From Prostheceraeus crozeri (taxonomy: Eukaryota; Platyhelminthes; Polycladida; Euryleptidae): a stretch of DNA of 64,000 nucleotides. The stretch spans positions 1 through 64,000 of the forward strand of contig CAJQUW010008956.1 in assembly GCA_907163375.1 (NCBI GenBank). Reading direction: 5' to 3'. The notes beneath the pieces are model-generated. The model ran no database searches. It saw only the letters and a program-made list of their open reading frames with translations, and was not told the origin of the DNA. Within the stretch, counting starts at the first letter, position 1; each line of letters starts with the position of its first letter. Both the position numbers and the translations under genes were made by a program. Positions 40,960 through 64,000 of the stretch are shown in pieces.

Positions 40960-40999
40960 TAAGGGAATTGAATTCTCGAAACGTTAGTTCCAAAAATTG

Positions 41000-42102: not shown

Positions 42103-42157
42103 GAACTTTGTTCAAAGGCTTTAGCCGATCGGACCAAAGGTCATCAGGTTACTAACC
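42103..42157. repeat. Composite palindromic element at capsid gene end (copy A)
   Basis: Three hairpins in a row: GAACTTTGTTC, GGCTTTAGCC, and GGACCAAAGGTC with CAGGTTACTAACC. The last two modules recur together, in the other orientation, at 58896-58960 in copy B, a different place relative to the genes. In copy A the capsid stop codon (TAG) falls inside GGTTAGTAACC. Confidence 0.65.
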
Positions 42158-46581: not shown

Positions 46582-46621
46582 GTTTTAGGATTAAACTTGA
46601 CTTTTGGGAAAAATATTTACG

Positions 46622-47494: not shown

Positions 47495-47538
47495 ATTTTT
47501 CAACAATTTTTTTTCTCACATAAAAATAAAAAATTGAA

Positions 47539-49190: not shown

Positions 49191-49263
49191 AACGATTAGA
49201 AACTAAATATAAGGTTCATAAATTTTTAGATGTAATAAGTTTTTAGATGTAATGAAAAATATA

Positions 49264-51087
49264 TTATTCCCATGTGTCATCATGACTTAAATTACTCTCA
49301 GCGAAGATTGTTCGAAATATTTCAGCTTGAATATCTTCTTCGTTATAAGGTAATATAATTCCTCTTTCAACAGGTCCTTGGTTGACGATTAAGAATATTT
49401 TTTGACAAGAAAATCTTTTTTCTTCAGTATTATTATTTTTATCAGGATTACTAATGCAAGTTTCTAAAGATTTTTTTCATGGTTTATTAACTGTAGTCGA
49501 TAATGTTTCACCCGAATATAATTTTAGAAAGTCTTCTACTTTTACTTTGTTTTGTGAAAATCCTTTGAATGTTTTCTTTTCACTAAGTCTTCCTTGTTCA
49601 TCTACAGTAATACAATATTTTATTTTAGGGACAATAAACATTTCAAATATAATTCCACCATTTCCATAATCATTTTTTCCTTGACACAATTCTCCCCCAA
49701 CATATCCAGCAGCATCTAATTTATTGAAGAGTACATTAGAAATGTATATTGAATCAGTATCTGTATAATGAATGTATTTTTCGTTGAAACCATTGATTTC
49801 TAAATTATAGTTATTCATGATTTTTCTAGAGTGAGAAAGAATAAAAGAACCTAAGTGTGATGGCATGAATGACGTCTTCCCATCTTTTACAATATTAGCT
49901 TTAAGGAATTCATCATCTTCCATTTCTACTTTCGCTAAATATTGTTCATCATTTACGTTTTCATAATCTTTTACTTCTTGAGTGAAATTTTTTCTCAATG
50001 TACTTTCATTCCATAAATGATATTTAGTGGTTATATCTTTTTGTACAGTTTTGCCATATAGCGAATTCATTAATAATTTAATTAACTCATCACCTGCAGT
50101 GTTTCCTTCTGTTTTATATATTTTTCTCAAATTAAAAAGTTTTTCAATGTATTTTCGAAATGGTAAAACGTGATAATTTTCTTCATAGATTATACCATCG
50201 GTAATAGATAATATTTTTCCACCACATCTAACAATTTCTTTTATGTCTACAGAAGTTAATACATCATAACATATACCATTTCTAAACATGATTACTTTTA
50301 CATGAGAATTATTACTTTGATTTTTAACTTTATCTTTTGTAGGAACTGGTTGGAAAAACATATCATTCGGATAATGAAACACAACTGTAAATATTCCAGT
50401 TTTAGGTCTAAATGTTTGAGTATTAAATTTATATACTATTTCCCGTTCTTCTTCTTGACGAAATTTTCTAGCGGATTCAGTTCTAGGGTATTCTGAATTT
50501 TCATCATACATAGCTGATGGATATAAAGGTGTTGCATCAAAAGCCATTAGAAATTCATTTTTTTGTTCAAGTAGTTGATTTGAAATTATTTTAAAAAGAT
50601 CATTCTTGTCTTTTAACTGATTATACTCCTTCATTAAATCTATTAAATTATTTCCAGGAAAATATTGTTGTAATATTGGTATCACGATGTTACAAAATGG
50701 AGATATGTATTTTCTTATATTTGCTGAAACTCTTCCACCTTTAACAGATTTTCTAATATAATTTCTAGCCCATAAATCTGTATGAGAATGAATATTTATA
50801 TTGTCATTTTGTACGCTTTTCATCAAACCGTTAAATGTTAAAGCGGAGGATGTTAAATTAGTAATTATATCTTCTCCAACTAAATCTTTCATAACATTAT
50901 TATATTTGTAGATACAAAAAGCTAAAGAAAGAATATCGTTAACTAAATATGGTCTCCATTCATTATCTTTTTCTTTATAATTTTCGTGTGTTATGTCTCC
51001 TATTTCATAATTTAATTTACACACATCGGTAGGAATTTTAAAATTCTCACACCATTTAGAAAGACTTGTTTTTACATGTTGATAACC
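49264..51087 (-). pseudogene. Copy A family B DNA polymerase, C-terminal part
   Basis: It is open from 51087 to 49477 on the minus strand, then a TGA, then open again in the same frame to a TAA at 49264. Blocks: YLVNDILSLAF (Exo III, Tyr-x3-Asp), NYIRKSVKGGRV, FDATPLYPSAM (motif A), LLMNSLYGK (motif B), and YIHYTDTDSIYIS (motif C). This is the polymerase half of a protein-primed family B enzyme (DPOL_B_2). The N-terminal half is absent: a stop and the 110-bp repeat block adjoin its left protein end at 51090. The orientation is opposite to that of the polymerase in copy B, so this part of copy A has been inverted. Confidence 0.85.
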
Positions 51088-51429
51088 ACATTAGTAATGG
51101 GCAAAAGACCGTTCCAGGCCACCACAAAATTCAAAAAAATAGTATCTTTAAAAACGACATAAATTCATGAATTTAGACCCTTTTTCAGGTTTTTAAGACC
51201 TAAATACATGAATTTAGACCGTTCCAGGACACCATAAAATCAGAAAAAATAGTATCTTTAAAAACGACATAAATTCATGAATTTGAACCCTTTTTCAGGT
51301 TTTTAAGACCTAAATACATGAATTTAGTCCATTCAAAAAGTACCATTTTTCAAAAATGGTACTTTTTAAAAACGACATAAATTCATGAATTTGAACCCTT
51401 TTTCAGGTTATGAAGACCTAAATTCATAA

Positions 51430-51462
51430 ATCGGCTAAAGCCAGAGGAGCTTCGCTCCGATT
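51430..51462. repeat. Palindromic element, TCGGCTAAAGCC type
   Basis: ATCGGCTAAAGCC followed by GAGGAGCTTCGCTCCGAT: a GGCTAAAGCC stem-loop, then a GAGCTTCGCTC hairpin, with ATCGG/CCGAT closing the whole. The same sequence lies inside the polymerase coding region at 62788-62822. Confidence 0.7.
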
Positions 51463-51524
51463 TGGGCGTTTTTAAAAATACCCAATTTTTCAAATTTTTC
51501 AAAATCTCAAAATTTGAGAATTAC

Positions 51525-51557
51525 AATCGGGCGAAGCCCTAGAACCTTCGGTTCGAT
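51525..51557. repeat. Palindromic element, GGGCGAAGCCC type
   Basis: AATCGGGCGAAGCCCTAGA followed by ACCTTCGGTTCGATT: hairpins GGGCGAAGCCC and ACCTTCGGT with closing AATCG/CGATT. Relatives lie in coding sequence at 60613, 63297 and 63352. Confidence 0.7.
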
Positions 51558-52212
51558 TTTCACCCTCGCTTAAATCATGACCGTTCCAGGACACCGAAAA
51601 TCATAAAAGTTAGGAATCTCAAAATTTGTGATTATGACATTTTTCATTGCTCAAATCATGACCGTTCCAGGACACCGAAAATCATAAAAGTTGAGAATTT
51701 CAAATTCATGAATTTTATCCATCTTTCAGGTTTTTAAAATATATCATGTGACTAAAAATATTTGAAGGAATTGACATATTCTTAACAATAAGTTTAGGTA
51801 CTTTTACAATTGTCATTCAATTGTAGAGAAGATCTGCTTCCCGCATTTAAGAATAAAATGCATTTCAGTGTAAGGAGCTGTGTCCTCCAACTCAAACATT
51901 TGAAAGGAAACAATGTATGAAAGAACAAACAGCTGCTACTACTCTGTGAAACAATGACATTTTAATTGTACGTTAGGCGAGTTGTTTTAAATTCTTGTTA
52001 GTGCGTCAGCACATCCGTATGACGTTAAGATATCTGCCAGCTGTACTGTTTTCATTTATCTCTCTCGTCTGTCATTGTATCGTGTGCTCAGATTGTTGTG
52101 TTATTATTTCAATCAACACTTATCATCTGCTTGCTCTCATCGTTCCGCTATCTTTAATTACGTTATTCTTATATTTTGAACATAGTGATTTGTACTAATT
52201 TATCCGTCAATC

Positions 52213-52881
52213 ATGAGTCAAGCAGTCGTTGAACAACAAGCCAACATAGCAACGGTACTTCCAGAGTTCTTCAAAAATATTGCGGATTTTTTCATTCCAT
52301 CGGAGAAACATTCTGAATACTTTTCGTATATAGACCAGCAAGTGAAGAAAGCGCCTCTACTCTTCAATCCTGACGCTATACGTTCTGCTCGAAAAGCATA
52401 CAAAGAGCAACATAAAATCGCAGCCAGAGCAAAGAAGGAAGCAGCACTTCCCTTCAGAATCGAAACATTTACAAAACAGTTGAAGGAAAGTGTTGTTGAA
52501 CGTCATACATTCATCGAATCAGTGGAATATTTTACAGAACCGGCGGGGGACATTTCAACGACAGTGAATTCTTTGAAACAACACTTGAAATACGAAAAAC
52601 AAAGCCATCTTTTGAGTGTCACATGTAAAATTTTTATTGGAAAACACGCAAATCATATATTATCCTTGTGTGAGAATAATAAAGCAGATTTCACATATCT
52701 CTTAAAACATCACAATATTAACTTTTCACGAACTGAATTGAGTTTCGCAATGAAGTTGGCAAAACTGGCAGATAAATATCAGACTCTTTGTAGAGTCTCG
52801 CTTCCTATACGACTGTTAAAAACTAATCTTTCAATCTTGGAGCAGTGTCTTTCACAAGATGAGGGTTTTTGGAATAATTGA
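52213..52881 (+). CDS. Lead protein of copy B, unknown function
   Basis: 222 codons from an ATG at 52213, complete and open. It is predicted mostly helical, with Lys-rich and Leu-rich stretches (ARKAYKEQHKIAARAKKEAA, TELSFAMKLAKLADKYQTL) and no membrane segment or catalytic motif that I recognise. It occupies the first position of the element, as its deleted relative does in copy A (39498), so it is a genuine element gene. The C-terminal half (FTYLLKHH...LSFAMKLAKLA...LPIRLL) looks like a helical DNA- or protein-binding module, but that is a guess. It is followed by 1.4 kb of tandem repeats, so it is transcriptionally apart from the protease. Confidence 0.7.
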   Translation: MSQAVVEQQANIATVLPEFFKNIADFFIPSEKHSEYFSYIDQQVKKAPLLFNPDAIRSARKAYKEQHKIAARAKKEAALPFRIETFTKQLKESVVERHTFIESVEYFTEPAGDISTTVNSLKQHLKYEKQSHLLSVTCKIFIGKHANHILSLCENNKADFTYLLKHHNINFSRTELSFAMKLAKLADKYQTLCRVSLPIRLLKTNLSILEQCLSQDEGFWNN

Positions 52882-52897
52882 TTATTCAACCCTTCTG

Positions 52898-53435
52898 TTT
52901 TAAATGCAATGTTATTTCCTCTTGCACATGTAAATACAATAGAGTGTTTCATCCAATGAAACCTTGTCCTCGCGTGGACAGAAAACCCATTGTTTAGAAA
53001 ATTTGTATCTGTCGGTTTTAAATGCAATGTTATTTCCTGTTTTAAATGCAATGTTATTTCCTCTTGCACATGTAAATACAATAGAGTGTTTCATCCAATG
53101 AAACCTTGTCCTCGCGTGGACAGAAAACCCATTGTTTAGAAAATTTGTATCTGTCGGTTTTAAATGCAATGTTATTTCCTGTTTTAAATGCAATGTTATT
53201 TCCTCTTGCACATGTAAATACAATAGAGTGTTTCATCCAATGAAACCTTGTCCTCGCGTGGACAGAAAACCCATTGTTTAGAAAATTTGTATCTGTCGGT
53301 TTTAAATGCAATGTTATTTCCTGTTTTAAATGCAATGTTATTTCCTCTTGCACATGTAAATACAATAGAGTGTTTCATCCAATGAAACCTTGTCCTCGCG
53401 TGGACAGAAAACCCATTGTTTAGAAAAATTGTATC
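52898..53435. repeat. 142-bp tandem repeats, about 3.7 units
   Basis: Near-identical units repeat exactly every 142 bp (for example CTCGCGTGGACAG at 52971, 53113, 53255 and 53397). Each unit contains TGCAATGTTATTTCCT twice and ATCCAATGAAACCTTGTCC once. They sit between the lead gene and the protease, where copy A has different repeats. Open frames across them on the minus strand are by-products of the periodicity. Confidence 0.9.
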
Positions 53436-53700
53436 TTATATGCAATGTTATTTCCTGTTTTAAATGCAATGTTATTTCCTGTTTTCAATCATTTTCATTA
53501 TGTTGTTGTATGCAATGTTATTTCCTGTTTTAAATGCAATGTTATTTCCTATTTTAAATGCAATGTTATTTCCTGTTTTAAATGCAATGTTATTTCCTGT
53601 TTTAAATGCAATGTTATTTCTTGTTTTCAATCATTTTCATTATGTTGTTATATGACGTCATTTTTCTCTCATCCAATGAAACCTTGTCCTCGCGTGGACA
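53436..53700. repeat. 24-bp tandem repeats (TGCAATGTTATTTCCTGTTT)
   Basis: About nine copies of TGCAATGTTATTTCCTGTTT plus TAAA, with two interruptions by a TCATTTTCATTATGTTGTT segment, end in one more copy of the CCTTGTCCTCGCGTGGACA motif. They are a derivative of the 142-bp unit. Confidence 0.85.
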
Positions 53701-53831
53701 AATTTACATGTATTTCAATGTATCCAAATTGAATGTATGCAAAGTGGTTGTAACCAAATTGAAATATCCATGTGTTGTTTTTAATTTCTCATTTACGGGA
53801 ATATAATAGAAATATTGTATCTTCTATAAAA

Positions 53832-53982
53832 ATGAGAAACATTAGAGACATTCTAAAAATATACAGCAAACAAAACCACATTAAATTTCGATTTAAATGA
53901 GATTGTTAAGCAATTGGGAGAAAAGAATTTTCACATATTGATGAGTAATGAATTACTATTGTTAAAAGATGAGCGAAACACC
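53832..53982 (+). pseudogene. Truncated extra protease N-terminus
   Basis: Readable as MRNIRDILKIY and, one frame over, DLNEIVKQLGEKNFHILMSN. It is related to the first 45 codons of the protease at 54272 and to the copy A protease. It ends before any catalytic residue. A partial duplication of the gene start. Confidence 0.65.
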
Positions 53983-54064
53983 TACTCTATGTAGTTAAAC
54001 ACTAACACAATGCAACAATGTAACGTTTAAATATAGATTCAATTAAATCATTTCAAAATTGAAT

Positions 54065-54231
54065 AAGTAGTAAGGAAAGACATCATTAGAGACCAGTTTT
54101 AAATCAATACCCCCCCCCAAGTAGTAAGGAAAGTCATCATTATAAAAATGTTTTAAATCAATACCCCCTTCTTACTAAGTAGTAAGGAAAGACATCATTA
54201 GAGACCAGTTTTAAATCAATACCCCCCCTTC
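54065..54231. repeat. Tandem repeat of about 60 bp with C-tracts
   Basis: Three units of AGTAGTAAGGAAAG(A/T)CATCATTA, then TTTTAAATCAATACCCCC, each ending in a run of 5-9 C, lie immediately upstream of the protease start. Possible promoter-region repeats, but no defined element is visible. Confidence 0.75.
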
Positions 54232-54271
54232 TGACTTCTAGGGGTCTCTTAAGAAATTTTTTTATTATAAA

Positions 54272-54700
54272 ATGAGCAACATAAATGAGTTTTTGAAATT
54301 ATATGGAACGCAAACTACGACAAATTTCGACCTAAAGAAAATCGCAAATGAATTGAGAATAAAGAATTTTCATGTTCTAATGAGAAACGAATTACAATTC
54401 CTAAAAAATAGGCCAACAATAACTGTAAATTTCATAACGAATCTTCACACTTCAGACCAAAACGGCGTACATTGGTCAGCAGGTATCTTTAGTAAAAACG
54501 GAGATAATTATTATTTTGACTCATACGGGCTTCCACCTACAAATGAAGTAAAAGAATTACTTGGAACGGGAACATACAATACGTTTCAAATTCAAACACC
54601 AGGCACTACTTATTGTGGACAATTATGTCTTTATGTTTTATTTAAATTACAGGAAGGAGTACCATTTCTAGATATAATGTTAGAATTGAACGAACCGTAG
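54272..54700 (+). CDS. Adenain-like (C5/Ulp1-fold) cysteine protease
   Basis: 142 codons from ATG 54272. The order and context of His67 (GVHWSAG), Asp83 (YFDSYGLPP), a Gln at 106 or 108, and Cys115 (GTTYCGQLCLY) match the adenovirus maturation protease and Ulp1 family, with the catalytic Cys followed by the G-x-(L/F)-C helix. Proteases of this type in Polintons and adintoviruses are thought to cut capsid precursor proteins during particle maturation. At 142 aa it is shorter than adenovirus proteases (about 200) but keeps the full catalytic set. It is convergent with the integrase gene, with a hairpin-rich gap of about 70 bp between them. The frame is intact, unlike that of copy A. Confidence 0.85.
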   Translation: MSNINEFLKLYGTQTTTNFDLKKIANELRIKNFHVLMRNELQFLKNRPTITVNFITNLHTSDQNGVHWSAGIFSKNGDNYYFDSYGLPPTNEVKELLGTGTYNTFQIQTPGTTYCGQLCLYVLFKLQEGVPFLDIMLELNEP

Positions 54701-54752
54701 GTTCTATGACTACGCCTAACAAGGGAATTTCATTCCCGAAACGTTAGTTCCA
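54690..54752. terminator. Hairpin cluster between convergent genes
   Basis: GAACCGTAGGTTC overlaps the protease stop. CCTAAC then pairs with GTTAG around an inner GGGAAT/ATTCCC hairpin. It sits in the short gap between the protease (+) and the integrase gene (-). A diverged version follows the copy A protease (about 40955-40995). It is probably a member of the palindromic family; a role in 3'-end formation is only an inference from position. Confidence 0.45.
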
Positions 54753-54771
54753 ATAATAATAATAATGATAA

Positions 54772-56082
54772 TTAAAAATCAGTTCGTTGTAATTCATTTT
54801 GATAAAAACGGCCTCTGATATCCTCATTATCTAAATCTTTAATTTCATAAGTAATCGGATAACTTTGATTTATTTTAGAAACTTCAAATATTTCTTTAGT
54901 CCAATAACCAACAAAACCTTTTTCAAATTTATTCTTATATTTAAATATTCTAACTCTATCTCCAATTTTAAATTTCGGCTTAAGTTTCTGCAAATTCGGA
55001 TTACTCTCATTCGAATTATTATTCTCGAATATTTTCTTTCGTATCAAATCAGGGTCGTCAGAAGCATTCTTTGGAGTTTCTTCAATACCAGAATGAACTT
55101 TATTATTGTACTCTTCCACAATTCCTGGTAATATTTTTAACCATTTCTGATTTCCTTGCTGAGTAAATTTCTTGAAAATTTTATTTTTTAACGTCCGATT
55201 GAATCTTTCTATCACTACAGCTTTTCCAGCGTTTTCAGTTGAATAAACAATTTCAAATAGTGGCTGAACGTTTCTGTTATAAAATTCCGACCCTTTATCA
55301 ACAAACAATTTCCTTGGCTTTCTATTACTTTCTTTAAAGATTTCTTCAAACGCATATTTAACTGATAGACCACTTTTATTTTTTAAAGGCTTTACCCAAG
55401 CATATCGTGTATATAAATCTATAACGGTCAATGCGTATTTGTAGTCCCTTTCATTCGGCATATGAATAAGATCAGCACTCCAAATATCATCTTTATTAAA
55501 TACTTTTACTTTTAATAAATATTTAGGCTTTCTATATTCTTTATGAATTTCAGATGCATAAACGTCTGAATTATGATTTTCATTTAAACCTTGACCGAAT
55601 AATATTTTAGCTTGTAAAGCTTTCTTAACAAACATTCTTTCAATTTTTTCTCTAAATGTAGGATTCTGAATACTATCTAATTCTTGAATCATCTTCTTAT
55701 CAGCTGCATGACGGGAACTTAGATCATGATTTCGATAAGCTAAATCATGCCTGTAAGCGGCGGCATCTACTCTATTTATTGGTTCTTCACCTGGTTTCGG
55801 ATTATTATTCTCATCTAGTCTTATATCTAATCGAGTTCCTGGACCGGTATATGAATGACCAGGAAGATGTTTTTCTTTCGAATATTTACTCCAAATAAAT
55901 CCAGGAAAGTTTTCTAATGTTTTTTGTATATCACCACCGTAGGTAGTAGCCAAACTTTGTTTGTCGTCGTTACCTTCATAAATTTTACAATTTGAGTTTT
56001 TATTTTTGTTTAATGGATAATTCAATAAATCTAAATTAGAAATTTTTAATTTAATTAAATTTTCGGAATTTTTAGAATTCAT
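54772..56082 (-). CDS. PLA2 domain fused to retroviral-type integrase
   Basis: 436 codons from ATG 56082 (an alternative start 20 codons upstream lacks family support). In numbering from the upstream start, residues 95-140 hold YTGPGTRLD (calcium loop) and AAAYRHDLAY (His-Asp active site) of a parvovirus-VP1-type phospholipase A2. Residues 215-345 hold an rve integrase core with Asp224 (WSADLIHM), Asp282 (LFVDKGSEFYN) and Glu312 (VVIERFNRTLKNK). Residues 388-452 form an SH3/chromo-like end (KFKIGDRVRIF...IFEVSKI). The integrase inserts the element; PLA2 domains in virions breach endosomal membranes. No N-terminal zinc-binding (HHCC) domain is seen. The second Asp to Glu gap is 29 residues rather than the usual 35, so catalysis is doubtful. 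The palindrome at 56135 lies upstream of the gene. Confidence 0.85.
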   Translation of the reverse strand: MNSKNSENLIKLKISNLDLLNYPLNKNKNSNCKIYEGNDDKQSLATTYGGDIQKTLENFPGFIWSKYSKEKHLPGHSYTGPGTRLDIRLDENNNPKPGEEPINRVDAAAYRHDLAYRNHDLSSRHAADKKMIQELDSIQNPTFREKIERMFVKKALQAKILFGQGLNENHNSDVYASEIHKEYRKPKYLLKVKVFNKDDIWSADLIHMPNERDYKYALTVIDLYTRYAWVKPLKNKSGLSVKYAFEEIFKESNRKPRKLFVDKGSEFYNRNVQPLFEIVYSTENAGKAVVIERFNRTLKNKIFKKFTQQGNQKWLKILPGIVEEYNNKVHSGIEETPKNASDDPDLIRKKIFENNNSNESNPNLQKLKPKFKIGDRVRIFKYKNKFEKGFVGYWTKEIFEVSKINQSYPITYEIKDLDNEDIRGRFYQNELQRTDF

Positions 56083-56134
56083 TTTAAAAGATAAAAAATT
56101 TAAAAGATAAAATAAAATATTTGTTTTACCGAAA

Positions 56135-56160
56135 AGAACCAAAGGTTCTGAGGTTATTAC
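56135..56160. repeat. Palindromic element abutting a stop codon
   Basis: GAACCAAAGGTTC with GAGGTTATTACC, a variant of the GGACCAAAGGTCC/GGTTACTAACC type. It overlaps the stop codon of the hydrophobic protein gene (56157-56159, minus strand). The corresponding place in copy A has no palindrome. Confidence 0.6.
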
Positions 56161-56684
56161 CGAATCATACTAGGACTTAGATATATTCCAGAACCATCCT
56201 TAGTTTCTTTAATTTCAATTAAATCATCAACATTGTGGAGAATATTTTTAAGAACTCGTTTTCCTTCATCAACTAATTTTAATTTACTAATAAAATTATC
56301 TACTACTCCTTTTCCTTCGGGCGAAGCCCTGGAAGACATCTCCGATGTCCCTTCACCCCTAGCAACTTTCTCTAACTCTCTGTTATGACGTTTTTGTTCT
56401 TCTAATGCTGCCTTCTCTGATTTATTTTTATTTACTGCTTGGACAATACCAGCTGTCCCACCTGCAACACTTCCTGCTGCAGCTATGCCTCCTATTATTA
56501 GTGGAATTAATGGGAGAATACCGCCATTCTTTTCTTCTTGTAATTGAATATTCTCTATCATTGGTTTACTTATGTAATACTTTTTTTAATTAATAGTAAT
56601 AGTTTTAGGGGTATTTTTGTCAACAATATTACGTAATTTTAATTCAACAGTTTTATTATTAATATTACTTTTCGCTTGCGACAT
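56157..56684 (-). pseudogene. Small hydrophobic virion-type protein, one in-frame stop
   Basis: The likely original start is ATG 56684. A TAA at 56586-56588 replaces a Lys codon of copy A. A downstream ATG at 56561 would still give 134 aa. The feature of note is GGILPLIPLIIGGIAAAGS followed by VAGGTAGIV, a Gly/Ala/Ile-rich membrane-active-looking helix, then a Lys-rich region and a C-terminal domain. Adeno- and adintoviruses carry small virion proteins (pX-like) with such segments; this assignment is by analogy and position only. A 42-nt palindromic insert lies at 56313-56357. Confidence 0.5.
56313..56357. repeat. In-frame palindromic insert in hydrophobic protein gene
   Basis: On the coding strand: GACATCGGAGATGTC, then TTCCAGGGCTTCGCCC. 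Two hairpins, the second with a TTCG loop. It encodes TSEMSSRASP. Comparison with copy A (41680-41710) gives a net gain of 42 nt, 14 codons. Confidence 0.8.
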
Positions 56685-56890
56685 TTTTAATAAAAAAATT
56701 TTAAGTTATCAAAAATTTAAATCTATTCTAGTTATGAAAAAATTTTAAGTTAAGAATTTTTTTAATCTATTCTAGTTATGAAAAAAATTTTAAGTTACTA
56801 AAAAAATTTTAATCTATTCTAGTTATCAAAATTTTAAGTTATCAAAAAAATTAAATTAATTAAACGACGAAGTCTTGGGCTTTAGCCGAT
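56589..56890. promoter_or_regulatory. AT-rich gap with repeated TTTTAAGTTA/TCTATTCTAGTTAT
   Basis: Upstream of the hydrophobic protein gene (56690-56860) the phrase TCTATTCTAGTTAT occurs three times with AAAATTTTAAGTTA between copies. It may hold the promoter of the minus-strand gene. No TATA box or other signal can be singled out in this AT-rich sequence. Confidence 0.3.
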
Positions 56891-56893
56891 CCT
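56866..56893. repeat. Palindromic element supplying the capsid stop codon
   Basis: GACGAAGTC and GGGCTTTAGCCGATCC. On the minus strand the capsid frame runs into ATCGGCTAAAGCC, the first module of the 51430-type palindrome, and its TAA is the stop codon. In copy A a different palindrome (GGTTAGTAACC) provides the stop at the same point. Confidence 0.6.
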
Positions 56894-58216
56894 AACCATC
56901 TTCCCATTAAGAATTTCAATAGAATATTTTGTATCTTCTAGCAATAAACCATAAGCCATCAATGAAGTTGTGGAATCTTTTTTTTCAATATTAATTGTTA
57001 CATCACAACCATTTTTAATAATATCTTCTGATTGTGCACTTAAATCGAAGCAGAAAATTGGATATAAATGTCTCCAATCTCCAGGAGTTAATTGTGGTTC
57101 AACTCCAAATTCTATACAAAGATTTCGATAAGAATCATATCCTTCCATAAATTGATTATTGGTATCATCGAATCTTAATGGATCAATTGGATATCGAGTT
57201 TGATTTAATGAAACTTGTAAACTTCGAATTGTATTAATATGAAAAATATTATTGTTCTTATCAAAACTTGGAGAATTATTTCTTTGAAATGTTAGTAATA
57301 AATATCTTGGGGTATTCGCAGTTCTAGTAAAATGCCAGTTAAATCTTTGTTCGGAAAAAGTTACTGAACTAGCAGTACGCTTTAGAAAATTTACTGGAAT
57401 TGGTTTGTTAGTATTTAATCTTTTTGCAATAGCTGTTTCAACCTCTAAACTAGGAGTAATATGCGTAATCCACCATTCAAGTCTATCAATTTTTAAATAT
57501 GCTTTTTTTCCAGTTTTGCCAAAAAAGATTAATTCATTATTTGCCGTACGATGAATTATTAATTTAAATTTAAATTGATATGATATTTTGTCATAATCTA
57601 AATATCCGAATAATGGAGACAATGACCAATTTACTGTCTGTTTACTTTTCTTGTTAAATTCACGTCTTTCTTTATATGCATCATTATTTGTTTTATTTAA
57701 ATGTTTTGCAATATTTTCTACATCTTTCGCAATTCCTGCTGCATCTGTTCCGGCGTGAGTTAAATCATCAATAATTATACCATCATTAGTATCAGGAAAC
57801 CAACCTTCGACTTTATACTTTTTATTATTTTCACCAATTGTTATAAATCTAAGCATTGTATCAATTACACCTGGGGAATCACTTATTGTTTCTATATTTT
57901 GAGTTGCAACATCTAAACGCATTTGTGTAAATAATCTTGGAAAAAAATTATTCTCTAGTGTAATATTATCGGTATCTGTTAATGGTGTTGTAAAATTAGC
58001 ATCACTATATAAAGAATATTCACAGTGTAAAAATGAATCAGGTAAATATAAATAGCTCTGCTGATTATCAACTTCAAAAATTAAATCACCTCCAGTGTTT
58101 ACTCTACTGGAAGATCCGGGATTCATAGCAATTCTTATATAGTCATTCTTTTTTTGATTGTAACTGGTGAACGGAGGATCATCTAATCTAAATTTATTTT
58201 CGATAAGCGAAGGCAT
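56882..58216 (-). CDS. Major capsid (hexon-like) protein, double-jelly-roll candidate
   Basis: 444 codons from ATG 58216 (MPSLIENKF). A start 12 codons upstream adds only a Lys-rich stretch. The sequence resembles the widespread invertebrate 'F54H12.2-like' proteins, which belong to Polinton/adintovirus capsid genes. Recognisable features are the N-terminal DDPPFTSYNQKKNDYIRI block, many short beta-strand-like segments, the DPLRFDDTNNQFMEGYDSY block and the C-terminal PGDWRHLYPIFCFDLSAQSE region. The protein would form the capsid shell. The frame is complete. It is colinear with the piggyBac-interrupted gene of copy A. The stop codon lies in a palindromic element. Capsid-versus-penton assignment rests on size and family memory; a structure prediction would settle it. 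Confidence 0.7.
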   Translation of the reverse strand: MPSLIENKFRLDDPPFTSYNQKKNDYIRIAMNPGSSSRVNTGGDLIFEVDNQQSYLYLPDSFLHCEYSLYSDANFTTPLTDTDNITLENNFFPRLFTQMRLDVATQNIETISDSPGVIDTMLRFITIGENNKKYKVEGWFPDTNDGIIIDDLTHAGTDAAGIAKDVENIAKHLNKTNNDAYKERREFNKKSKQTVNWSLSPLFGYLDYDKISYQFKFKLIIHRTANNELIFFGKTGKKAYLKIDRLEWWITHITPSLEVETAIAKRLNTNKPIPVNFLKRTASSVTFSEQRFNWHFTRTANTPRYLLLTFQRNNSPSFDKNNNIFHINTIRSLQVSLNQTRYPIDPLRFDDTNNQFMEGYDSYRNLCIEFGVEPQLTPGDWRHLYPIFCFDLSAQSEDIIKNGCDVTINIEKKDSTTSLMAYGLLLEDTKYSIEILNGKMVRIG

Positions 58217-58346
58217 TTTTATAAGAAATAATTTGACTTTTTTTTTTCTCACAGACAGAAAAAAAATTTTTACTAAAATATAATTTTAGAATTTTACTAA
58301 ATATAATTTTAGGATTTTACTAAATATAATTTTAGAATTTTGCTAG

Positions 58347-58394
58347 ACCAGCTCCGCTACAGCTTTGCTGGTTAGACCGAAGGTTGCTGCTCAC
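58347..58394. repeat. 48-nt palindromic insert near the C-terminus
   Basis: CAGCTCCGCTACAGCTTTGCTG and TTAGACCGAAGGTTG-type hairpins. Copy A (about 46160-46180) lacks it. The net difference is exactly 48 nt, 16 codons, between the conserved GNG and LAKF residues of the gene's former frame. Confidence 0.75.
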
Positions 58395-58710
58395 GCCATT
58401 ACCTCTTATTTCTTCAATTGTTTTTTCATTATGTTTACTATCACCATCCACAGCTATGTTAGCAATTTTAATTTTTGGTTTCATCTGAAAGTTTTTTTAA
58501 TTTTTTTAGTTCTTCAGAATCATTCTTGAGTTTACGAATAGCTTCTAGTTGTTTTAATTCGTTTTGTGATTTAACAGCATTTGATATTGCACTAGCTGTA
58601 CTACCTATAGCAGCTGCTCCTTTTGCAGCAGATGTAATCAAATCTTTATTATTTTTAATTAAGTTAACGATACTACCAATACCAGAAAAGATTCCATCCC
58701 CTTCTTTTTG

Positions 58711-58755
58711 GACGGCACCTGCGGTGCCTAGGAACTTTTGTGTTCCGACAGTTTC
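58711..58755. repeat. Palindromic insert in the small virion-type protein gene
   Basis: GGCACCTGCGGTGCC and GGAACTTTTGTGTTCC hairpins, read through in frame as VGTQKFLGTAGAV. It is absent from copy A at about 46477. The net difference there is 40 nt, but copy A has other small indels in this region. Confidence 0.65.
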
Positions 58756-58895
58756 TACACTATCATAATGGTACACAGGTTTCTGAGATGGTTCATGAGC
58801 AATTTTATTATTTGATGCAAAATGTTTAAGATTGTGTTTATAAATTATAGGCATTTTTTAGGATTAAATTTGACTTTTGGGAAAAAATATTTGCG

Positions 58896-58960
58896 ATCGG
58901 CTAAAGCCTCGAGGAGCTTCGCTCCGATTGGTTAGTAACCTGAGGACCTTTGGTCCGTTC
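58896..58960. repeat. Composite palindromic element in an intergenic gap
   Basis: ATCGGCTAAAGCC, GAGGAGCTTCGCTCCGAT, GGTTAGTAACC, and GGACCTTTGGTCC in succession. Copy A (about 46612) has 2 nt here, a net gain of 63 nt. The end of the element abuts the fibre-gene stop codon (58959-58961). The same modules occur at 42103-42157 at the end of the capsid gene in copy A. Confidence 0.75.
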
Positions 58961-59846
58961 AAGATTTACGTTTGTGAATGGACAACAACTTCGAGATAAC
59001 TTTATTAATTGCCTGTTGCACTTTATCTATTGCGTCAAGCAGCGTGTGATGTACTTTAATTTCTTTTCTATTAACTTGCATTTTCTGCTGATTAATCTTC
59101 AATGCCGTTTTAAGAGCATTTAACTTAATTTTAAGAACATCTAATTGTCTTTTAACAGCATCTAACTGTTCTTTATTTTCTTTAGAGTTTTCTTGTAAAT
59201 TTTTCTTTAATTCATTTTCTAAATTGATTTTAAGATTTTTCATTTTATCAACTTTTTCATTAAGTGAGTTTACTTCATTTATTATTCTATTCATCTTTTT
59301 CATTTGTTGAGTAATTTTAGAACTTAATTCATCAACACTTTTTTGGAATGTAGTTTGTAACTGCTTTAAATTTTTTTTAATTCTTTCAGGAAGTTTTTCT
59401 ATTTCATCTTCTAATTGTTCTTCTAACATTTTGATCTGATGTTTATTTTTAATTACAGCAGATTTTAACTTTATAGAAAGTAATATTAAAATTTTTGATT
59501 GTTCTGAAATCTTTTTAAAAAGTTTTGCTATATCTGCTTCTAGCTCTCTATCCTTTTTATCAAGTTTTAATAATTTTTCGTTTAATGATTTGTCATTAAG
59601 TTTTAGCAACTTTAATTCATTCATCAGTGGAACCAAAACATCGTTTATATATTTTTCCTTTAAATCATTGATTTGTGTATCAACATATTGTTTATTTGTT
59701 AACTCTGTATTTTGTTGTGGAAGAATAGAAAGATGCAATGGACCAGATAAAACGTCTCCAGTTTTCATGATATAATTTTCTATCTCTATTTCTAATTCAC
59801 GATTATTCGGGATATATGCACCTCCACCAACATTTGGTAACATCAT
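58959..59846 (-). CDS. Fibre-like protein: tail-fibre motif plus long coiled coil
   Basis: 295 codons, intact. Residues 26-58 read YIMKTGDVLSGPLHL ... ELTNKQYVD, the GD-x-(L/M)-SG-x-L ... (T/N)-K-(K/Q)-YVD arrangement well known from phage tail and receptor-binding fibres, where it forms a small trimer-joining unit. Residues 58-290 are an almost uninterrupted coiled coil rich in Lys, Glu, Leu and Ile, as expected of a trimeric shaft. There is no globular head at the C-terminus, which ends KLLSIHKRKS. It lies in the virion gene block, head to head with the clamp-like gene across a gap of about 45 bp. It is probably a spike or fibre; it could also be an internal scaffold. Confidence 0.65.
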   Translation of the reverse strand: MMLPNVGGGAYIPNNRELEIEIENYIMKTGDVLSGPLHLSILPQQNTELTNKQYVDTQINDLKEKYINDVLVPLMNELKLLKLNDKSLNEKLLKLDKKDRELEADIAKLFKKISEQSKILILLSIKLKSAVIKNKHQIKMLEEQLEDEIEKLPERIKKNLKQLQTTFQKSVDELSSKITQQMKKMNRIINEVNSLNEKVDKMKNLKINLENELKKNLQENSKENKEQLDAVKRQLDVLKIKLNALKTALKINQQKMQVNRKEIKVHHTLLDAIDKVQQAINKVISKLLSIHKRKS

Positions 59847-59892
59847 TTTTTAACAATAAAAAAATAAAATTTTTTCTAATAAAAATAAAAAA
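59847..59892. promoter_or_regulatory. Divergent promoter gap, A/T homopolymer-rich
   Basis: The gap between the fibre-like gene (-) and the clamp-like gene (+) holds AATAAAAAAATAAAA and TTTTTTCT runs. It must drive both directions if the genes are expressed. It lies close to a deletion that removed the first part of the clamp-like gene. Confidence 0.35.
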
Positions 59893-61182
59893 TTGGAAAA
59901 TCCAAATTTAAAAAAATTATATTCGCCCGCATCATCCTGTTCTTCTTATTCGACGAGATCAACGGGATTTGAAAATAAATGTTTTGATAATAATAATAAT
60001 CCATGTATAGATGTTAATATTTTATTTCTATTACAAGCCGAAATATTTAGAGAACAGAATAAAGGTTTACCTTCTATAGAAACTAATTATTGTTTATTTC
60101 CGGGGGATCCATTTATTAAATTTATGGAGATTGTAAGTAAATATAATGATGTAGCTTATGTTGAATTAAATAAAGAAAATATGGTTATAATAGGTCATAA
60201 TAATGTTTATGGATTTATTAGAGCAGTTTTACCAATTAGTAATACTGAGTGGATAGAAAATAAAATTATTAATTATATCAATATCAAAGAATTAGTTACA
60301 AAATTAAAATCGTTTTCCAAGGAAAAAATTAGATTATTTGTTGATGAACAAAACCAATATAATATTCATATCGAGAGTAAAAAACATAATGAAGAATTAT
60401 TATGTCAAGTTTATTATAGAGACACAATTTACAAACAAGAAACATTAGAAATGCCGCAAAGATATGATGATGATACTTATATAGGATTATATTCAAACTT
60501 AAATATTAATTTGTTAAAATCTTATATAAATGGTTTAGCTCAACAAGAGAAAATTTATATGTGGACTACACCTTATACTATTAACAATGACCATAATCAT
60601 ATTCATAATAAACGAACTGAAGGTTCTAGGGCTTTGCCCGATCTTAAAGAATCTTATGATAATAATGATGATTCTGTAACATCTGAAAAAGGTGTAAATG
60701 GTAAAAAAGATTATAAAAATATTAGTAATTATAAAAATTTATCTAAATTTCATTTTCTTACAATTGAAAATAATAATGATGGTATAGTTGAAGATACTGT
60801 TAGACAACTATGTGTCGGGTCTACAAAATTTAAATTAGGATTTACATCTAATCAATTTAAAATTTTATCATCTTTAATAAAAACTAAAAGTGATTCAGAT
60901 TATGGTGGTGTTATTAAATTTTCCAAAAGAGATCAAAGACCAATATTTTTCTCTATTATATTATTATCAGATAAAAGATGTAATTTAGAGTTAGATATTC
61001 CAATAAGAGAATGGTATCCTATCATGGAAGGGCATCCTATACCAAAAAGTGTAATTTATGATGATGAAGAAACAATTTATGATGATGATGAAGAAACAAT
61101 TTATGATGATGATGATGAATCAATAGTTAGTGAAAAAAAATTTAAATTATCTTTTGATAAAACATTATATGATGAAACTTAA
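59893..61182 (+). pseudogene. Clamp-like protein (possible processivity factor), start codon lost
   Basis: It is open for 429 codons from 59893, but no ATG is in frame before 60124. Copy A retains an ATG and about 47 extra codons that a deletion has removed here. The sequence is unrecognised at family level. Its pattern (helix, two strands, then NIKELVTKLKSF, followed by KIRLFVDEQNQYNIHIES, and later QFKILSSLIKT with GGVIKFSKRDQRPIFFSI) recalls the repeated lobes of sliding clamps. The position just upstream of the polymerase on the same strand fits a processivity factor. Acidic repeats (YDDDEETI) lie near the end. A 30-nt palindromic insert is at 60613-60642. Low confidence for function. Confidence 0.5.
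60613..60642. repeat. In-frame palindromic insert in clamp-like gene
   Basis: CGAACTGAAGGTTC, then TAGGGCTTTGCCCGAT. It encodes RTEGSRALPD. Copy A (about 48384) reads straight from Asn to Phe-Lys-Glu-Ser, so the net gain is 30 nt, 10 codons. A close relative encodes RTESSRASPD in the polymerase at 63297. Confidence 0.8.
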
Positions 61183-61240
61183 TAAGATAAAACTTAATAT
61201 GATAAAACTTAATATGATAAAACTTAATGTGATAAAGAAA
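61178..61240. repeat. 15-bp tandem repeat with a stop codon in each unit
   Basis: ATGATAAAACTTAAT is repeated about four times directly after the clamp-like gene's stop. Each unit carries an in-frame TAA. After the last unit the original reading resumes (KKITKERE, as in copy A), then stops at about 61281. Repeat expansion has separated the gene from its former tail. Confidence 0.75.
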
Positions 61241-61367
61241 AAAATAACTAAAGAACGTGAAATATATAATAATATAAAATAACACTCAAGTCCTTGATAT
61301 TAGAATGTTTATATCTAAAATTAAAACACAAATTTTTTCTTAAATTTTCTCTAAAAAAATAAAAAAA

Positions 61368-64000
61368 ATGGAAAATACCAAGTTTTATTGTGTCTTATGT
61401 AAAAAAAAGTTGCAAACAAAAAGAAGTTATCAATCTCATTTAAATAGTAAATTGCATTTACAAAATGTAGAACGAGTTGATGAAGGAAATATATTAAAAT
61501 TAAATAGTTATAAAAACTATCTAGAAACATTGCCTACTGATATAAAAGTTAAAAAAATGTTTGATGATTATTCACATTCGGAATATAAAAAAGTTTTTAA
61601 TAGTGAAGATGAGACCATACATGTGACATCGGAGATGTCTTCCAGGGCTTCGCCCGTACCAGATGGAAGATATTTATTTAGCGATACTGATGAATTTAAC
61701 GAAATAGATGAATTTGATGAAGCCTTAGCAAATATAAAATATTTATTTAATCAGTCTTTTGAATATAATGAAACCGATAAAACTTTTTCTGATATTCTAA
61801 CCAACTTTTATAATATATTTAAGAAATCTTTCAAATGTTATATGAATGTAGAAGTACTTTATACAAAAAATGGACCTGATGGAATTCCTGAAGAAATAAT
61901 ACAAGGACATTTTACAAATTCACAAGAAATACATAATGTAAATGATATACAACCCATATTTGAATCGATGATACTTAAATTAGAAAATTGTATAATTGAA
62001 GCCCAGTTACGTGAATCTGGTTGGAGATTTGTTAAAATAATATCTAAGAAAATAGTAATTGATAAATATAAAAATAATACTTGTGGTAGTTATGTTCCTT
62101 TACCTTTCAGTTCACCACAAATAATCAACATAAAAAATGAAGATGATTATTGTTTTCTGTGGAGTATTATAGCACATTTACATCCTGCAGAATATCATAA
62201 AGAAAGACTAAGTCATTATAATAAAGAAGAATACATAAATGAATTTGATCTCTCTGATGGCTTAGATGAATTTCCATATGATTATAATAGGTTAATAAAG
62301 TTTCATAAAAAGAATAAAAATTTAATAGAAGTAAATGTTTTTGAATTAAATGTGAATTATGTTTCTATTGGTAAAATTACTCCACTTTACTCAGATTCAA
62401 AAAAATTTTATTTGAATAATAAAAATTTATGTCAATCAGAAATAGTATATAATGATAGAGGAAATTACATGCATCATAATATTTTTTACCAAGGAAATAT
62501 AATATGTACTGAAAAATTTGAACTTGTTAAAACATTATCACCAATAATGATTAATCATAATAATTATAAAGGACGTACTGATGATTATAATTACAAATAT
62601 TCATCTTTATCCTCAGAATATCAACAAAAATTAGAAAATTTAAATAAAAGTTTACAAAAATGTAAAACAGATTATCAACAAACAAAAATATTAGTACAAG
62701 AATATGGCCATAAATATGAAAATAAGATAGAAACGATTCAAAAATTAAATGAAGAAAATAATGAATTAAATAATGAAGAAAATAAAGAATCGGCTAAAGC
62801 CAGAGGAGCTTCGCTCCGATTAAATGAATGTTTAAAAAAATGTCTACAACAATATAAAGAACAATATGATAAAGAATATATTTATCAGCTACAAATATTA
62901 AATCAAAATTATCATCAAAATACATTTAATATTACAAAAGAAATTAATGAAAAACATGAAATATATCAAGATAAATTTGTAAAATTAGAACAGTCAAAAC
63001 AACCAGCACAAGCGAATATATTATATTATCAGGGACATTTTATATTGTGTAAAGATGTTTCTATATTCACAAAAACTTCAGATAATACAAATTTTCCTTG
63101 TCTTCAATGTATGACAAGTTTTAGAACTAAAGAAGAAATGAATAGACATTTGGAGAATTGTCAACAAAACGAAGCAGTTCAAAATACTTTTCCTAAAGAT
63201 GATTATTTAGAATATAATAAATGGTATTTTAAAAATAAAGTACCCTTTACTATTTATTGTGATTTTGAAGCTTATAATGTTAATATGACACAAAATCGAA
63301 CGGAAAGTTCCAGGGCTTCACCCGATTCTGAAAATTATAATTCTGAAAATGGTACGGGCCAAGCCCTAGAACCTTCGGTTTTTAATTCTGAAAAAAGTGC
63401 ACCTGGAAAAAGTTCAGCTGAACAAAGTAAAGAAAAATATTTATTTGAACAAAAACCATTATGTTGGGGAATGTACATTCATTCAAATTATCCTGAATTA
63501 TTTAAATCAGAATATTTTCAATACTATGGTGAAGATAGTTCAGAAATGTTTACAAAGAAAGTAGAAGAATTACAAGGACGTTTTTCACAATTGCTTGAAA
63601 CAAATATACCGATGATGCCATTAACAGAAAAAGAAAAATTAAATTTTATTAATGAAACAAAATGTTATTACTGTGGAAGAGAATTTACAAAAAATTATAA
63701 AAATGGCAAAGGTAGATATCTTGATAGGCGAAGCGACGGCTCTGCCGTCAAGGTAAAAGATCATGATCATCTAAATGGATTATATAGAGGTGCAGCACAT
63801 AATTCTTGTAATCTTAATGCTAATAAATTTAAATATAACTTTGTTCCTTTATATTTCTATAATGGTTCTAAATATGATTTCCATCTAGTAATGAAAGATT
63901 TATTTTCATCTGAAAAATTACAACAACAACAAATAAATGTACTATGTAAAACAGAAGAAGAATATTTTTCAATGCAATTAGGTTGTATTAGAATTTTTGA
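61368..64000 (+). CDS. Protein-primed family B DNA polymerase, N-terminal part
   Basis: It is open from ATG 61368 to the window edge (877 codons so far). In order: a C2H2-type finger at residues 5-30 (FYCVLCKKKLQTKRSYQSHL); a conserved CFLWSIIAHLHP block near 262, seen in many Polinton polymerases; a long coiled-coil region at 410-560; a second Cys/His pair (CLQCMTSF...H) near 575; the exonuclease I motif YCDFEAY (Asp632); an endonuclease-VII-like zinc/HNH site from Cys766 (CYYCGREF ... VKDHDHLNG ... HNSCNLN); and the Exo II-type block FYNGSKYDFHLV. Polymerase motifs lie beyond the window. The type copies the element from a protein primer. Five palindromic inserts (61625, 62788, 63297, 63352, 63720) read through in frame. 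Confidence 0.9.
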   Translation, partial: MENTKFYCVLCKKKLQTKRSYQSHLNSKLHLQNVERVDEGNILKLNSYKNYLETLPTDIKVKKMFDDYSHSEYKKVFNSEDETIHVTSEMSSRASPVPDGRYLFSDTDEFNEIDEFDEALANIKYLFNQSFEYNETDKTFSDILTNFYNIFKKSFKCYMNVEVLYTKNGPDGIPEEIIQGHFTNSQEIHNVNDIQPIFESMILKLENCIIEAQLRESGWRFVKIISKKIVIDKYKNNTCGSYVPLPFSSPQIINIKNEDDYCFLWSIIAHLHPAEYHKERLSHYNKEEYINEFDLSDGLDEFPYDYNRLIKFHKKNKNLIEVNVFELNVNYVSIGKITPLYSDSKKFYLNNKNLCQSEIVYNDRGNYMHHNIFYQGNIICTEKFELVKTLSPIMINHNNYKGRTDDYNYKYSSLSSEYQQKLENLNKSLQKCKTDYQQTKILVQEYGHKYENKIETIQKLNEENNELNNEENKESAKARGASLRLNECLKKCLQQYKEQYDKEYIYQLQILNQNYHQNTFNITKEINEKHEIYQDKFVKLEQSKQPAQANILYYQGHFILCKDVSIFTKTSDNTNFPCLQCMTSFRTKEEMNRHLENCQQNEAVQNTFPKDDYLEYNKWYFKNKVPFTIYCDFEAYNVNMTQNRTESSRASPDSENYNSENGTGQALEPSVFNSEKSAPGKSSAEQSKEKYLFEQKPLCWGMYIHSNYPELFKSEYFQYYGEDSSEMFTKKVEELQGRFSQLLETNIPMMPLTEKEKLNFINETKCYYCGREFTKNYKNGKGRYLDRRSDGSAVKVKDHDHLNGLYRGAAHNSCNLNANKFKYNFVPLYFYNGSKYDFHLVMKDLFSSEKLQQQQINVLCKTEEEYFSMQLGCIRIF
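61625..61657. repeat. In-frame palindromic insert 1 in polymerase
   Basis: GACATCGGAGATGTC, then TTCCAGGGCTTCGCCCG. It encodes TSEMSSRASP, the same peptide and frame as the insert in the hydrophobic protein gene at 56313-56357. Confidence 0.8.
62788..62822. repeat. In-frame palindromic insert 2 in polymerase
   Basis: ATCGGCTAAAGCC, then AGAGGAGCTTCGCTCCGAT. It encodes ESAKARGASLRL inside the coiled-coil region. The sequence is identical to the non-coding copy at 51430-51462. Confidence 0.8.
63297..63328. repeat. In-frame palindromic insert 3 in polymerase
   Basis: TCGAACGGAAAGTTCC, then AGGGCTTCACCCGATT. It encodes RTESSRASPD shortly after the DFEAY exonuclease motif. The hairpin has one mismatch compared with the 60613 copy. 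Confidence 0.75.
63352..63381. repeat. In-frame palindromic insert 4 in polymerase, opposite orientation
   Basis: ACGGGCCAAGCCCTAGA, then ACCTTCGGTTT. The same family as insert 3 but reversed, and it still reads through without a stop as TGQALEPSV. Only about 25 nt separate the two, forming a larger inverted pair. Confidence 0.75.
63720..63752. repeat. In-frame palindromic insert 5 in polymerase
   Basis: CTTGA, AGGCGAAGCGACGGCTCTG, then CCGTCAAG: the outer CTTGA/TCAAG and inner GACGG/CCGTC pair. It encodes DRRSDGSAVK between the Cys pair and the DHDH of the endonuclease-VII-like site. Confidence 0.65.

Follow-up and report, generated by a model that had tools for sequence, protein, structure and literature searches.

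To our knowledge, mobile palindromes that code for protein are known mainly from Rickettsia, where the events are few. Bacterial REP/BIME sequences are short hairpins, often arranged as opposite-sense pairs, that lie between genes and are moved by RAYT enzymes, and the elements of the fungus Allomyces take a two-hairpin form. Rickettsia palindromic elements (RPEs) are palindromes of several families that sit in frame in unrelated genes and give a conserved peptide (PMC10969869). The GC clusters of yeast mitochondria (e.g. GC42) are GC-rich palindromes in AT-rich DNA with a putative AG target duplication; they are present or absent between close genomes, and their units merge and shuffle (PMC4478555). 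Double-hairpin or repetitive hairpin-forming elements of fungal and sponge mitochondria invade genomes repeatedly (PMC2800124). Here we analyse a window of 64,000 nucleotides (nt), positions 1 to 64,000 of contig CAJQUW010008956.1 of the flatworm Prostheceraeus crozeri, in which a Polinton, a virus-like transposon, carries short GC-rich double hairpins within and between its genes. In the part of a paper on stem-loops in giant viruses used here, such elements are not described (PMC5799277). Titles and abstract openings in the open-licence literature likewise gave no description of them in Polintons, which agrees with an earlier note on this DNA that knew of none, and is no proof of novelty.

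We read these palindromes as copies of very short non-autonomous mobile elements living in one Polinton lineage, with a probability of roughly 0.8. The hairpins are present in some copies and absent from others at orthologous sites, they are bounded by short direct repeats, different types occupy one and the same site, and their copy number is high and, in our sample, nearly confined to Polinton DNA. Inside genes they are retained with the frame preserved and in one reading frame. The common architecture is two short hairpins with a linker of 2-5 nt. Two young types, of 28 nt and 33-37 nt, dominate, and older types have different stems. Type 1 is CGAACCGAAGGTTCTAGGGCTTCGCCCG (28 nt), while type 2 combines the 5′ hairpin GACATC-GGA-GATGTC with the 3′ hairpin of type 1, GGGC-TTC-GCCC.

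The genome (2.05 Gb in 14,165 contigs) contains the core GGGCTTCGCCC 13,298 times versus 36 times for a reversed control, and the exact type 1 28-mer occurs 3,186 times versus 0 for its control. A reference set was made of 20 loci around core matches in the first 100 listed places (62 core matches), and a test set of 20 further loci, mostly around isolated matches of the same list (28 core matches). In the test set, 26 of the 28 core matches lie in Polinton DNA, as judged by similarity to the reference loci; one locus, L023, resembles these solely near its core match. The remaining two (L021 and L025), judged by eye, belong to longer, unrelated palindromes. Spread throughout the host was considered and is not seen in this sample, both non-Polinton core matches being of this kind. 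As a side observation, these two places (L021:1516 and L025:1580) are host loci outside Polintons where longer palindromes surround CTCGGGCTTCGCCCTCG, perhaps members of another host inverted-repeat family. Element sites are found on many contigs, within Polinton copies, and are not mitochondrial. Among the matches listed, type 1 copies are often paired in reverse and forward orientation about 16-22 kb apart. A 441-bp query from the type B DNA polymerase (PolB) gene gave 493 first-look candidates, of which 40 were scored, all at least 99% identical, the window included. A 171-bp query around site S4 gave 1,675 candidates, and the 40 scored were 98-100% identical. By these sequence matches the carrier Polinton family is large and young. 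Outside this genome, exact 20-mer and 24-mer searches of IMG/VR with sequence from types 1 and 2 gave 0 matches, as did an exact type 1 22-mer in a collection of bacterial and archaeal genomes, a weak test in which no RPE sequence was compared. No relatives of the capsid protein were found in IMG/VR.

Ten insertion sites, numbered here with S, were compared across loci, and 20 short stretches covering S1 and S2 were fetched additionally. At S1, in PolB, 21 copies are empty and 15 filled, comprising six of +30 nt (type 1), five of +39 (type 2), two of +69 (a tandem of both), one of +29 and one of +32. At S2, also in PolB, eight copies have +30, six +39 and two +54, and the rest are without a complete element. 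In the single background CAGTCTTTT^GAA, S2 is found empty (in the window and others), filled with type 1 (L048) and filled with type 2 (L044), with TT flanks on both sides in each filled state. Counts of empty and filled copies are 11 and 3 (each +39) at S4, 14 and 2 at S7, 2 and 7 at S6, and 25 and 11 at S12. S3 and S10 lie outside genes as far as seen, with one copy each having an open frame through the site; S3 has 2 empty copies, 5 of +31, 9 of +38, 2 of +68 and 2 of +75, and S10 has 9 empty and 5 filled. Identical positions in all relatives, as ancestral gene parts would show, are therefore not what we see, since alleles with and without the insert exist at S1, S2, S3, S4, S6, S7, S10 and S12.

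Differences of this kind are also seen between very similar copies. Over about 6.3 kb, 30 mismatches separate loci L005 and L008 (about 99.5% identity), and the sole gaps longer than 5 nt between them are those at S2 (+30) and S4 (+39); S1 is occupied in both, by type 2 in one locus and by type 1 in the second. A 147-nt terminal gap is the cut end of the L005 slice and falls outside the compared stretch. A tree of a stretch between S4 and S7, in which 7 of the 13 inner branches have poor support, joins the two loci as sisters (97/92) and has copies with a filled S4 in three places. Across 67 pairs of PolB copies with at least 93% identity (16 loci), we see 108 distinct indels of at least 20 nt, which are not 108 events because one insertion may show under several gap placements. 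A loose criterion, which asked for one hairpin or more in some rotation and a G+C content of at least 40%, is passed by 80 of these; 36 of the 80 are exactly 30 nt long and 13 exactly 39, and a few, judged by eye, are repeats that contain no element. On visual inspection the remaining 28 are either AT-rich repeats or these elements again with the gap displaced. When the cut is set at 97% identity, three pairs and ten indels are left, of which three match young-type modules and four more are, by eye, older double hairpins.

The direction of change is given by relatives outside the genome. The nearest PolB sequences, P0001 (71% identical) and P0002 (59%), have no insert at S5 or S7 and no CGSQSKT insert, and P0001 is continuous and insert-free through S4 and the position of the insert at 63727; it begins after S1 and S2 and leaves those two sites uncovered. 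As both are insert-free at the sites they cover, the insertions are derived. The peptides SRASP, TEGSR, SEMSS and SRALP are in none of 120 relatives among the matches listed (of 268).

The features of the window that bear on these comparisons are given here by position, strand and the evidence used.

40523 to 51090, no strand: copy A, a degraded Polinton sequence with few hairpins, used as a natural comparison (Pfam, alignments).
51430 to 51461, forward: older double hairpin (GGCTAAAGCC + GGAGCTTCGCTCC), non-genic, within the repeats next to the Polinton end (same 32-mer at 62789; fold).
51526 to 51557, reverse: type 1 with outer ATCG/CGAT, terminal-repeat site S9 (exact 28-mer match).
54692 to 54704, forward: single hairpin GAACCGTAGGTTC enclosing the stop codon of open reading frame (ORF) 54242-54700 (hairpin scan).
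54772 to 56169, reverse: integrase (rve) with a phospholipase A2-like domain (Pfam PF00665).
56318 to 56351, reverse: type 2 in frame in ORF 56157-56585, site S6; copy A uninserted (copy comparison).
56866 to 56890, reverse: hairpin pair overlapping the end of capsid ORF 56882-58285 (hairpin scan).
56882 to 58285, reverse: double-jelly-roll major capsid protein (Pfam PF21738).
58346 to 58385, reverse: hairpins outside genes, where copy A has GCTAAGCC (by eye and hairpin scan).
58714 to 58746, reverse: degenerate double hairpin in frame in ORF 58468-58857 (hairpin scan).
58896 to 58956, forward: double hairpin (58896-58928) and hairpin (58942-58956) outside genes, the whole block absent from copy A (alignment).
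60613 to 60640, forward: degenerate type 1 in frame in ORF 59860-61182, peptide RTEGSRALPD (frame analysis).
61620 to 61656, forward: type 2 in frame in PolB, site S1; elsewhere empty, type 1, type 2 or tandem (copy comparison).
61751 to 61752, forward: site S2 in PolB, empty here, with +30, +39 or +54 in other copies (copy comparison).
62789 to 62820, forward: older double hairpin in frame in PolB; a 30-nt gap AT-CGGCT...CTCCG-AT between copies (copy comparison).
63297 to 63324, forward: site S5, with a degenerate type 1 in the PolB frame here and type 2 elsewhere (copy comparison).
63355 to 63378, reverse: type 1-like element running the other way in PolB, the departure from the one-frame rule (hairpin scan, copy comparison).
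63727 to 63749, forward: short hairpin insert in PolB, 24 nt in copy comparisons (hairpin scan, copy comparison).

Polinton DNA occupies the right third of the window with integrase, PolB and double-jelly-roll capsid genes, so that the Polinton marker genes (rve integrase, type B polymerase of the viral/organellar kind, double-jelly-roll capsid) are all present. The intact PolB frame starts near 61368 and runs off the window, and was identified by homology to PolB relatives; a further type B DNA polymerase match (Pfam PF03175) lies at 49477-51090 in the degraded stretch. Copy A has few hairpins (40523-40547 and 42117-42142). Alignment shows it to be without the 58896-58956 block and the S6 insert, and by eye it is also without the inserts at 58346, 58714 and 60613, where the alignments are poor. 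The hairpin GAACC-GTA-GGTTC at 54692-54704, with its stop codon inside, is by eye absent from copy A too.

The earlier note had counted at least fifteen palindromic elements here. We located 14 hairpin blocks plus the small one at 54692-54704, most of them double hairpins rather than independent palindromes. It had placed about nine in reading frames with no stop introduced; no stop is indeed added, and the count inside long open frames is eight. It had remarked that some elements stand at stop codons; 54692-54704 encloses one, and 56866-56890 overlaps the end of the capsid frame. The shared modules it listed are common to many Polinton copies, the degraded copy A holding few. Its central suggestion of a mobile palindromic element comparable to RPEs is supported by the alleles with and without inserts, the insert-free PolB at 71% identity and the frame bias described below.

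Other observations on the carrier and its surroundings can be added. The phospholipase A2-like domain (PF08398) precedes rve in the integrase frame 54772-56169. ORF 59860-61182 has no homologue at E ≤ 0.001, with just one weak PHROG match. A DDE_Tnp_1_7 transposase gene (PF13843, which we take to be a domain of piggyBac-type elements) interrupts copy A at about 42.5-45.4 kb (42500-45420), and tandem repeats of ATGCAATGTTATTTCCTGTTTTAA units fill 52900-53650, between the two Polinton stretches of the window. Remains of other elements lie at 12183-17310, with a DUF659-like frame that scores below the cut-off (12183-13076) and a reverse transcriptase (PF00078; 15883-17310). In the sampled locus L083, a COX1 frame (table 5) is extended at length on both its N-terminal and C-terminal sides. 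The one COX1 match reported in the genome is closest, among named species, to the polyclads Stylochus and Pseudostylochus (69% identity), which points to a probable flatworm host; records without a species name go up to 91%. Tandem units of 15 nt (GACATCGGTTCATGG-like) enlarge the 5′ hairpin of type 2 at three sites (S2 in L047 and L050; S6 in L007, L033, L034 and L040; S8 in L007 and L033).

The elements are flanked by short direct repeats, mostly of 2 nt, and are most simply read as CG...CG with a pair of AT letters to either side. We see TA/TA at S1, TT/TT at S2, AT/AT at S5 and S9, and TT/TT at S7. The gaps between copy pairs also show older families as 30-nt units with direct repeats, where ATAT flanks AGCCTGCGGCTCACAGTCGAAGACTG, GAT flanks AAAACCTGTGGTTCACAGTCGAAGACT, GTT flanks CAAGCCGATGGCTCTAGGACAAAGTCC and AT flanks CGGCTAAAGCCAGAGGAGCTTCGCTCCG. 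As for terminal inverted repeats like those of a miniature inverted-repeat transposable element (MITE), the outermost letters of the elements are only C...G or CG...CG and variable. Introns were ruled out on sight, as the inserts have no GT...AG ends. At S4 the repeat matches the background, with AT/AT in L005 and TT/TT in L001 and L035. Independent insertions into AT and TT backgrounds looked convincing from these three copies, and the idea was then weakened by a survey of 20 fetched copies (6 without an anchor), in which the 14 readable ones comprise 11 AT/AT, 1 TT/TT and 2 mixed. The mixed repeats indicate that recombination takes part.

That survey is one of several results that weigh against reading the hairpins as mobile elements. 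Repeats of 3-4 nt can be read at some sites, and several copies have unequal pairs (TG/TT and TA/TT at S2). The letters beside the duplication tend to track the site and not the type, with exceptions: both types have TA-CA at S1, and TA-AC is seen at S3 and TTGCG at S10. This suggests that occupied sites exchange their 5′ hairpin, and not that insertion happened separately many times. A variant found at no other site fills S4 in three places of the tree, for which spread by recombination fits as well as fresh insertion. Recombination shuffles alleles between copies, so that alleles are not independent events, and some empty alleles may be precise losses, because short repeats around a hairpin favour deletion. 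Two coding alleles, L035 with +29 and L011 with +32, are not multiples of three. The sampled loci came from the first contigs listed and are not random, some being neighbours. No moving enzyme or intermediate was identified: a Pfam search of 9 window ORFs found no transposase besides rve, and HUH enzymes were not searched for.

It is possible, although we think it rather unlikely, that recombination and precise loss are all there is, with old insertions whose present variation reflects shuffling and slippage deletion between short repeats. This account overlaps with that of mobile elements, and it would explain why junctions are site-specific and common to both types at S1, S3 and S10, why the S4 variant is confined to S4 while appearing in three places of the tree, and why 2 of 14 S4 repeats are mixed. 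It sits poorly with the presence of the current types at many unrelated sites, in genes as well as terminal repeats, with the thousands of copies (3186) of an exact 28-mer, and with P0001 and P0002, whose insert-free state at the covered sites makes the insertions derived.

The reading of the hairpins as mobile elements also has to account for their fate inside genes. Of the 54 filled coding alleles, 52 have a net length divisible by three (S1 13/15, S2 16/16, S12 11/11, S4 3/3, S6 7/7, S7 2/2) versus 4 of 23 outside genes (S3 2/18, S10 2/5), so that a length bias separates coding from non-coding sites. These figures are a description and not a test, because the copies share descent, and frame preservation is partly built in, because the 28 nt of type 1 and two duplicated letters add up to 30, also in terminal repeats (S9). 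The coding count omits S2 rows anchored on a neighbouring repeat (L006, L053, L058, L062) or having +3, +9 or +18 and no complete element (L011, L019, L054, L059, L060, L061), the mis-anchored S1 row L039, six S12 rows (+18, no hairpin), and all of S5, where the right anchor falls inside a repeat and a second element is included. S5 itself gives 13 lengths from 36 to 90, every one a multiple of three. S8, for which there is no empty allele, was not counted.

The 3′ hairpin, exact or with one letter changed, was then surveyed in the window and 40 loci longer than 1 kb, against open frames of at least 120 codons. Of 102 such hairpins, 57 lie in sense frames, 43 in no such frame and 2 solely in antisense frames. 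All 57 are read AGG GCT TCG CCC or a variant of it; four also overlap another open frame, and the coding status is doubtful for three (S3 in L003, S10 in L006 and one in L023). Eight coding sites (one in ORF 59860-61182; S1, S2, S4, S5, S7 and S12 in PolB; S6 in ORF 56157-56585) agree in using a single one of the six possible frames for the young types (…SRASP…). Type 1 leaves four of its six frames open and type 2 all six, so the chance that seven sites agree with the first is about (1/4)^7 or less, if frames are equally likely and sites independent. The exception, at 63355-63378, is reversed and type 1-like, has no exact core and stands outside the 3′ hairpin count. The retained peptides are hydrophilic, RTEGSRASP or GTSEMSSRASP, and by hydrophilicity the used frame ranks top among the open frames of type 1 and third of six in type 2.

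Such uniformity invites the view that it is the peptide that is selected and not the DNA, the inserts being useful linkers or modification sites in viral proteins that spread by recombination. One frame of six at eight sites, the similar peptide from both types and the constant reading of the 3′ hairpin all fit this view. We nevertheless judge it quite unlikely, since 43 of the 102 3′ hairpins are where no long frame is open and insert-free alleles are common. The rank of the type 1 frame is explicable by purifying selection alone, the type 2 frame is only third of six, and the element at 63355-63378 is read in the opposite orientation.

The shape of the elements was assessed separately. For types 1 and 2, each strand folds into a pair of neighbouring hairpins, whether treated as DNA or as RNA, and a two-hairpin fold is also given by three older elements whose stems differ, on the strand given; fold energy alone is weak evidence, because the z-scores are only -1.4 to -2.7. 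A scan of 51.4-64 kb for long perfect stems gave 2 matches, where 40 Markov-randomised sequences averaged 0.475 and reached 2 at most; this is no convincing excess, because the stems are short (4-6 bp). With stems of at least 4 bp and loops of 3-5 nt, we see 332 hairpins in 215 kb (20 loci and window 40-64 kb) versus 43-74 in five randomised sets. Triloop hairpins number 355 in 269 kb (window 51400-64000 and fetched loci longer than 2.9 kb, minus L021, L025, L041, L042 and L083) versus 17-33 in ten Markov-randomised sets. On one strand or the other, 301 of these triloop hairpins have the form C(NNA)G (randomised 1-10) and 210 the form C(GNA)G (randomised 0-2); when each distinct triloop hairpin is counted once, the total is 64, with 41 C(NNA)G and 18 C(GNA)G. 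The commonest loop is C(GAA)G, which is C(TTC)G read from the other strand. The earlier note had taken many loops for the stable RNA tetraloop TTCG, which these counts contradict, most loops being triloops closed by C-G. A GNA loop with at least two G-C pairs belongs to a class of extraordinarily stable DNA mini-hairpins, according to the part of the source used (PMC4686876). In types 1 and 2 both strands show one GNA loop, the top strand in the 5′ hairpin and the bottom strand in the 3′ hairpin. This C(GNA)G rule points at single-stranded DNA as the working form.

Two-hairpin folds, the C(NNA)G loop rule and the location of elements in terminal repeats and at gene ends could also be expected of cis-acting hairpins that serve the Polinton in replication, packaging, transcription end or RNA structure and are gained or lost for regulation. 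We regard such a function as improbable, because presence differs between copies 99.5% identical, type and number vary freely at a single site, six of the eight coding sites are inside PolB, and the related PolB frame is open without hairpins at the covered sites. As for regulation by RNA hairpins, no result here calls for it, and the argument from the TTCG tetraloop is weak. In a last alternative there is no mobile family, and fold-back or slippage during the copying of single strands makes every hairpin afresh. This would suit stems of many sequences under one loop rule and the 15-nt tandem enlargements in type 2, and is very improbable given that the same exact sequences recur thousands of times and that both hairpins and the linker recur together.

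How the mobile elements might move can be outlined. The element would be a hairpin pair in which the 5′ hairpin differs by type and the 3′ hairpin defines the wave, GGGC-TTC-GCCC now and CAGTC-GAA-GACTG and others earlier. Insertion would take place into Polinton DNA during its replication, hairpins folded on single-stranded DNA being copied or joined at AT-rich dinucleotides and typically duplicating 2 nt. Occupied sites could then swap their 5′ hairpin by template switching or recombination via the shared 3′ hairpin. Insertions that break genes or add harmful peptides would be lost, and those adding hydrophilic peptides retained. Polinton-type polymerases are thought to displace long single strands, and we infer movement on replicating Polinton DNA from this strand displacement, from the stable GNA hairpins and from the finding of no family element in other sampled chromosomal DNA. 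The target duplication of the Polinton integrase is longer than these repeats, which makes that enzyme an unlikely mover. We hold evenly balanced the fuller proposal that these are double-hairpin parasites of 28-37 nt, living solely on one animal Polinton lineage and moving on single-stranded replication intermediates in several waves told apart by the 3′ hairpin, which insert the same hydrophilic peptide at site after site and so shape viral proteins.

If this is true, they would be the smallest mobile elements known to edit the genes of a eukaryotic virus-like element. The present case also suggests that Polintons carry parasites of their own. One animal genome here holds hundreds to thousands of copies of one Polinton, with empty, filled, swapped and tandem alleles beside copies more than 99% identical. 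Insertion, loss, frame selection and hairpin exchange can thereby be counted directly, and the old question of the mobility of DNA of about 30 letters becomes testable.

By analogy, the elements are probably best placed as RPE- and GC-cluster-like mobile elements in a Polinton, their mode of movement being what we infer above. They resemble REP/BIME sequences as short paired hairpins, and differ in that those are intergenic and moved by RAYT enzymes. With PARCEL they share coding DNA with dyad symmetry that spreads between genomes, yet PARCEL consists of amphipathic tandem repeats of 25 residues in microbes, as the part of the account used has it, whereas single inserts of 10-13 residues are found here (PMC2996958). 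The Allomyces elements are without flanking duplications, the sponge elements are intergenic, and both belong to organelle genomes (PMC2800124), whereas here we see duplications and coding sites. The likeness to yeast GC clusters lies in a GC-rich palindrome with AT-rich surroundings, a two-letter WW duplication at most sites and shuffling of the 5′ hairpin; in contrast to those mitochondrial clusters with their AG target, the present elements are in Polinton DNA, many of them in genes with the frame kept. Like RPEs, they are short palindromes in frame in unrelated genes, here PolB, ORF 59860-61182 and ORF 56157-56585. Unlike RPEs, which are bacterial and about 150 bp long, they are double hairpins of 28-37 nt in an animal virus-like transposon and, set against that system, they come with short direct repeats and with different types at one site.

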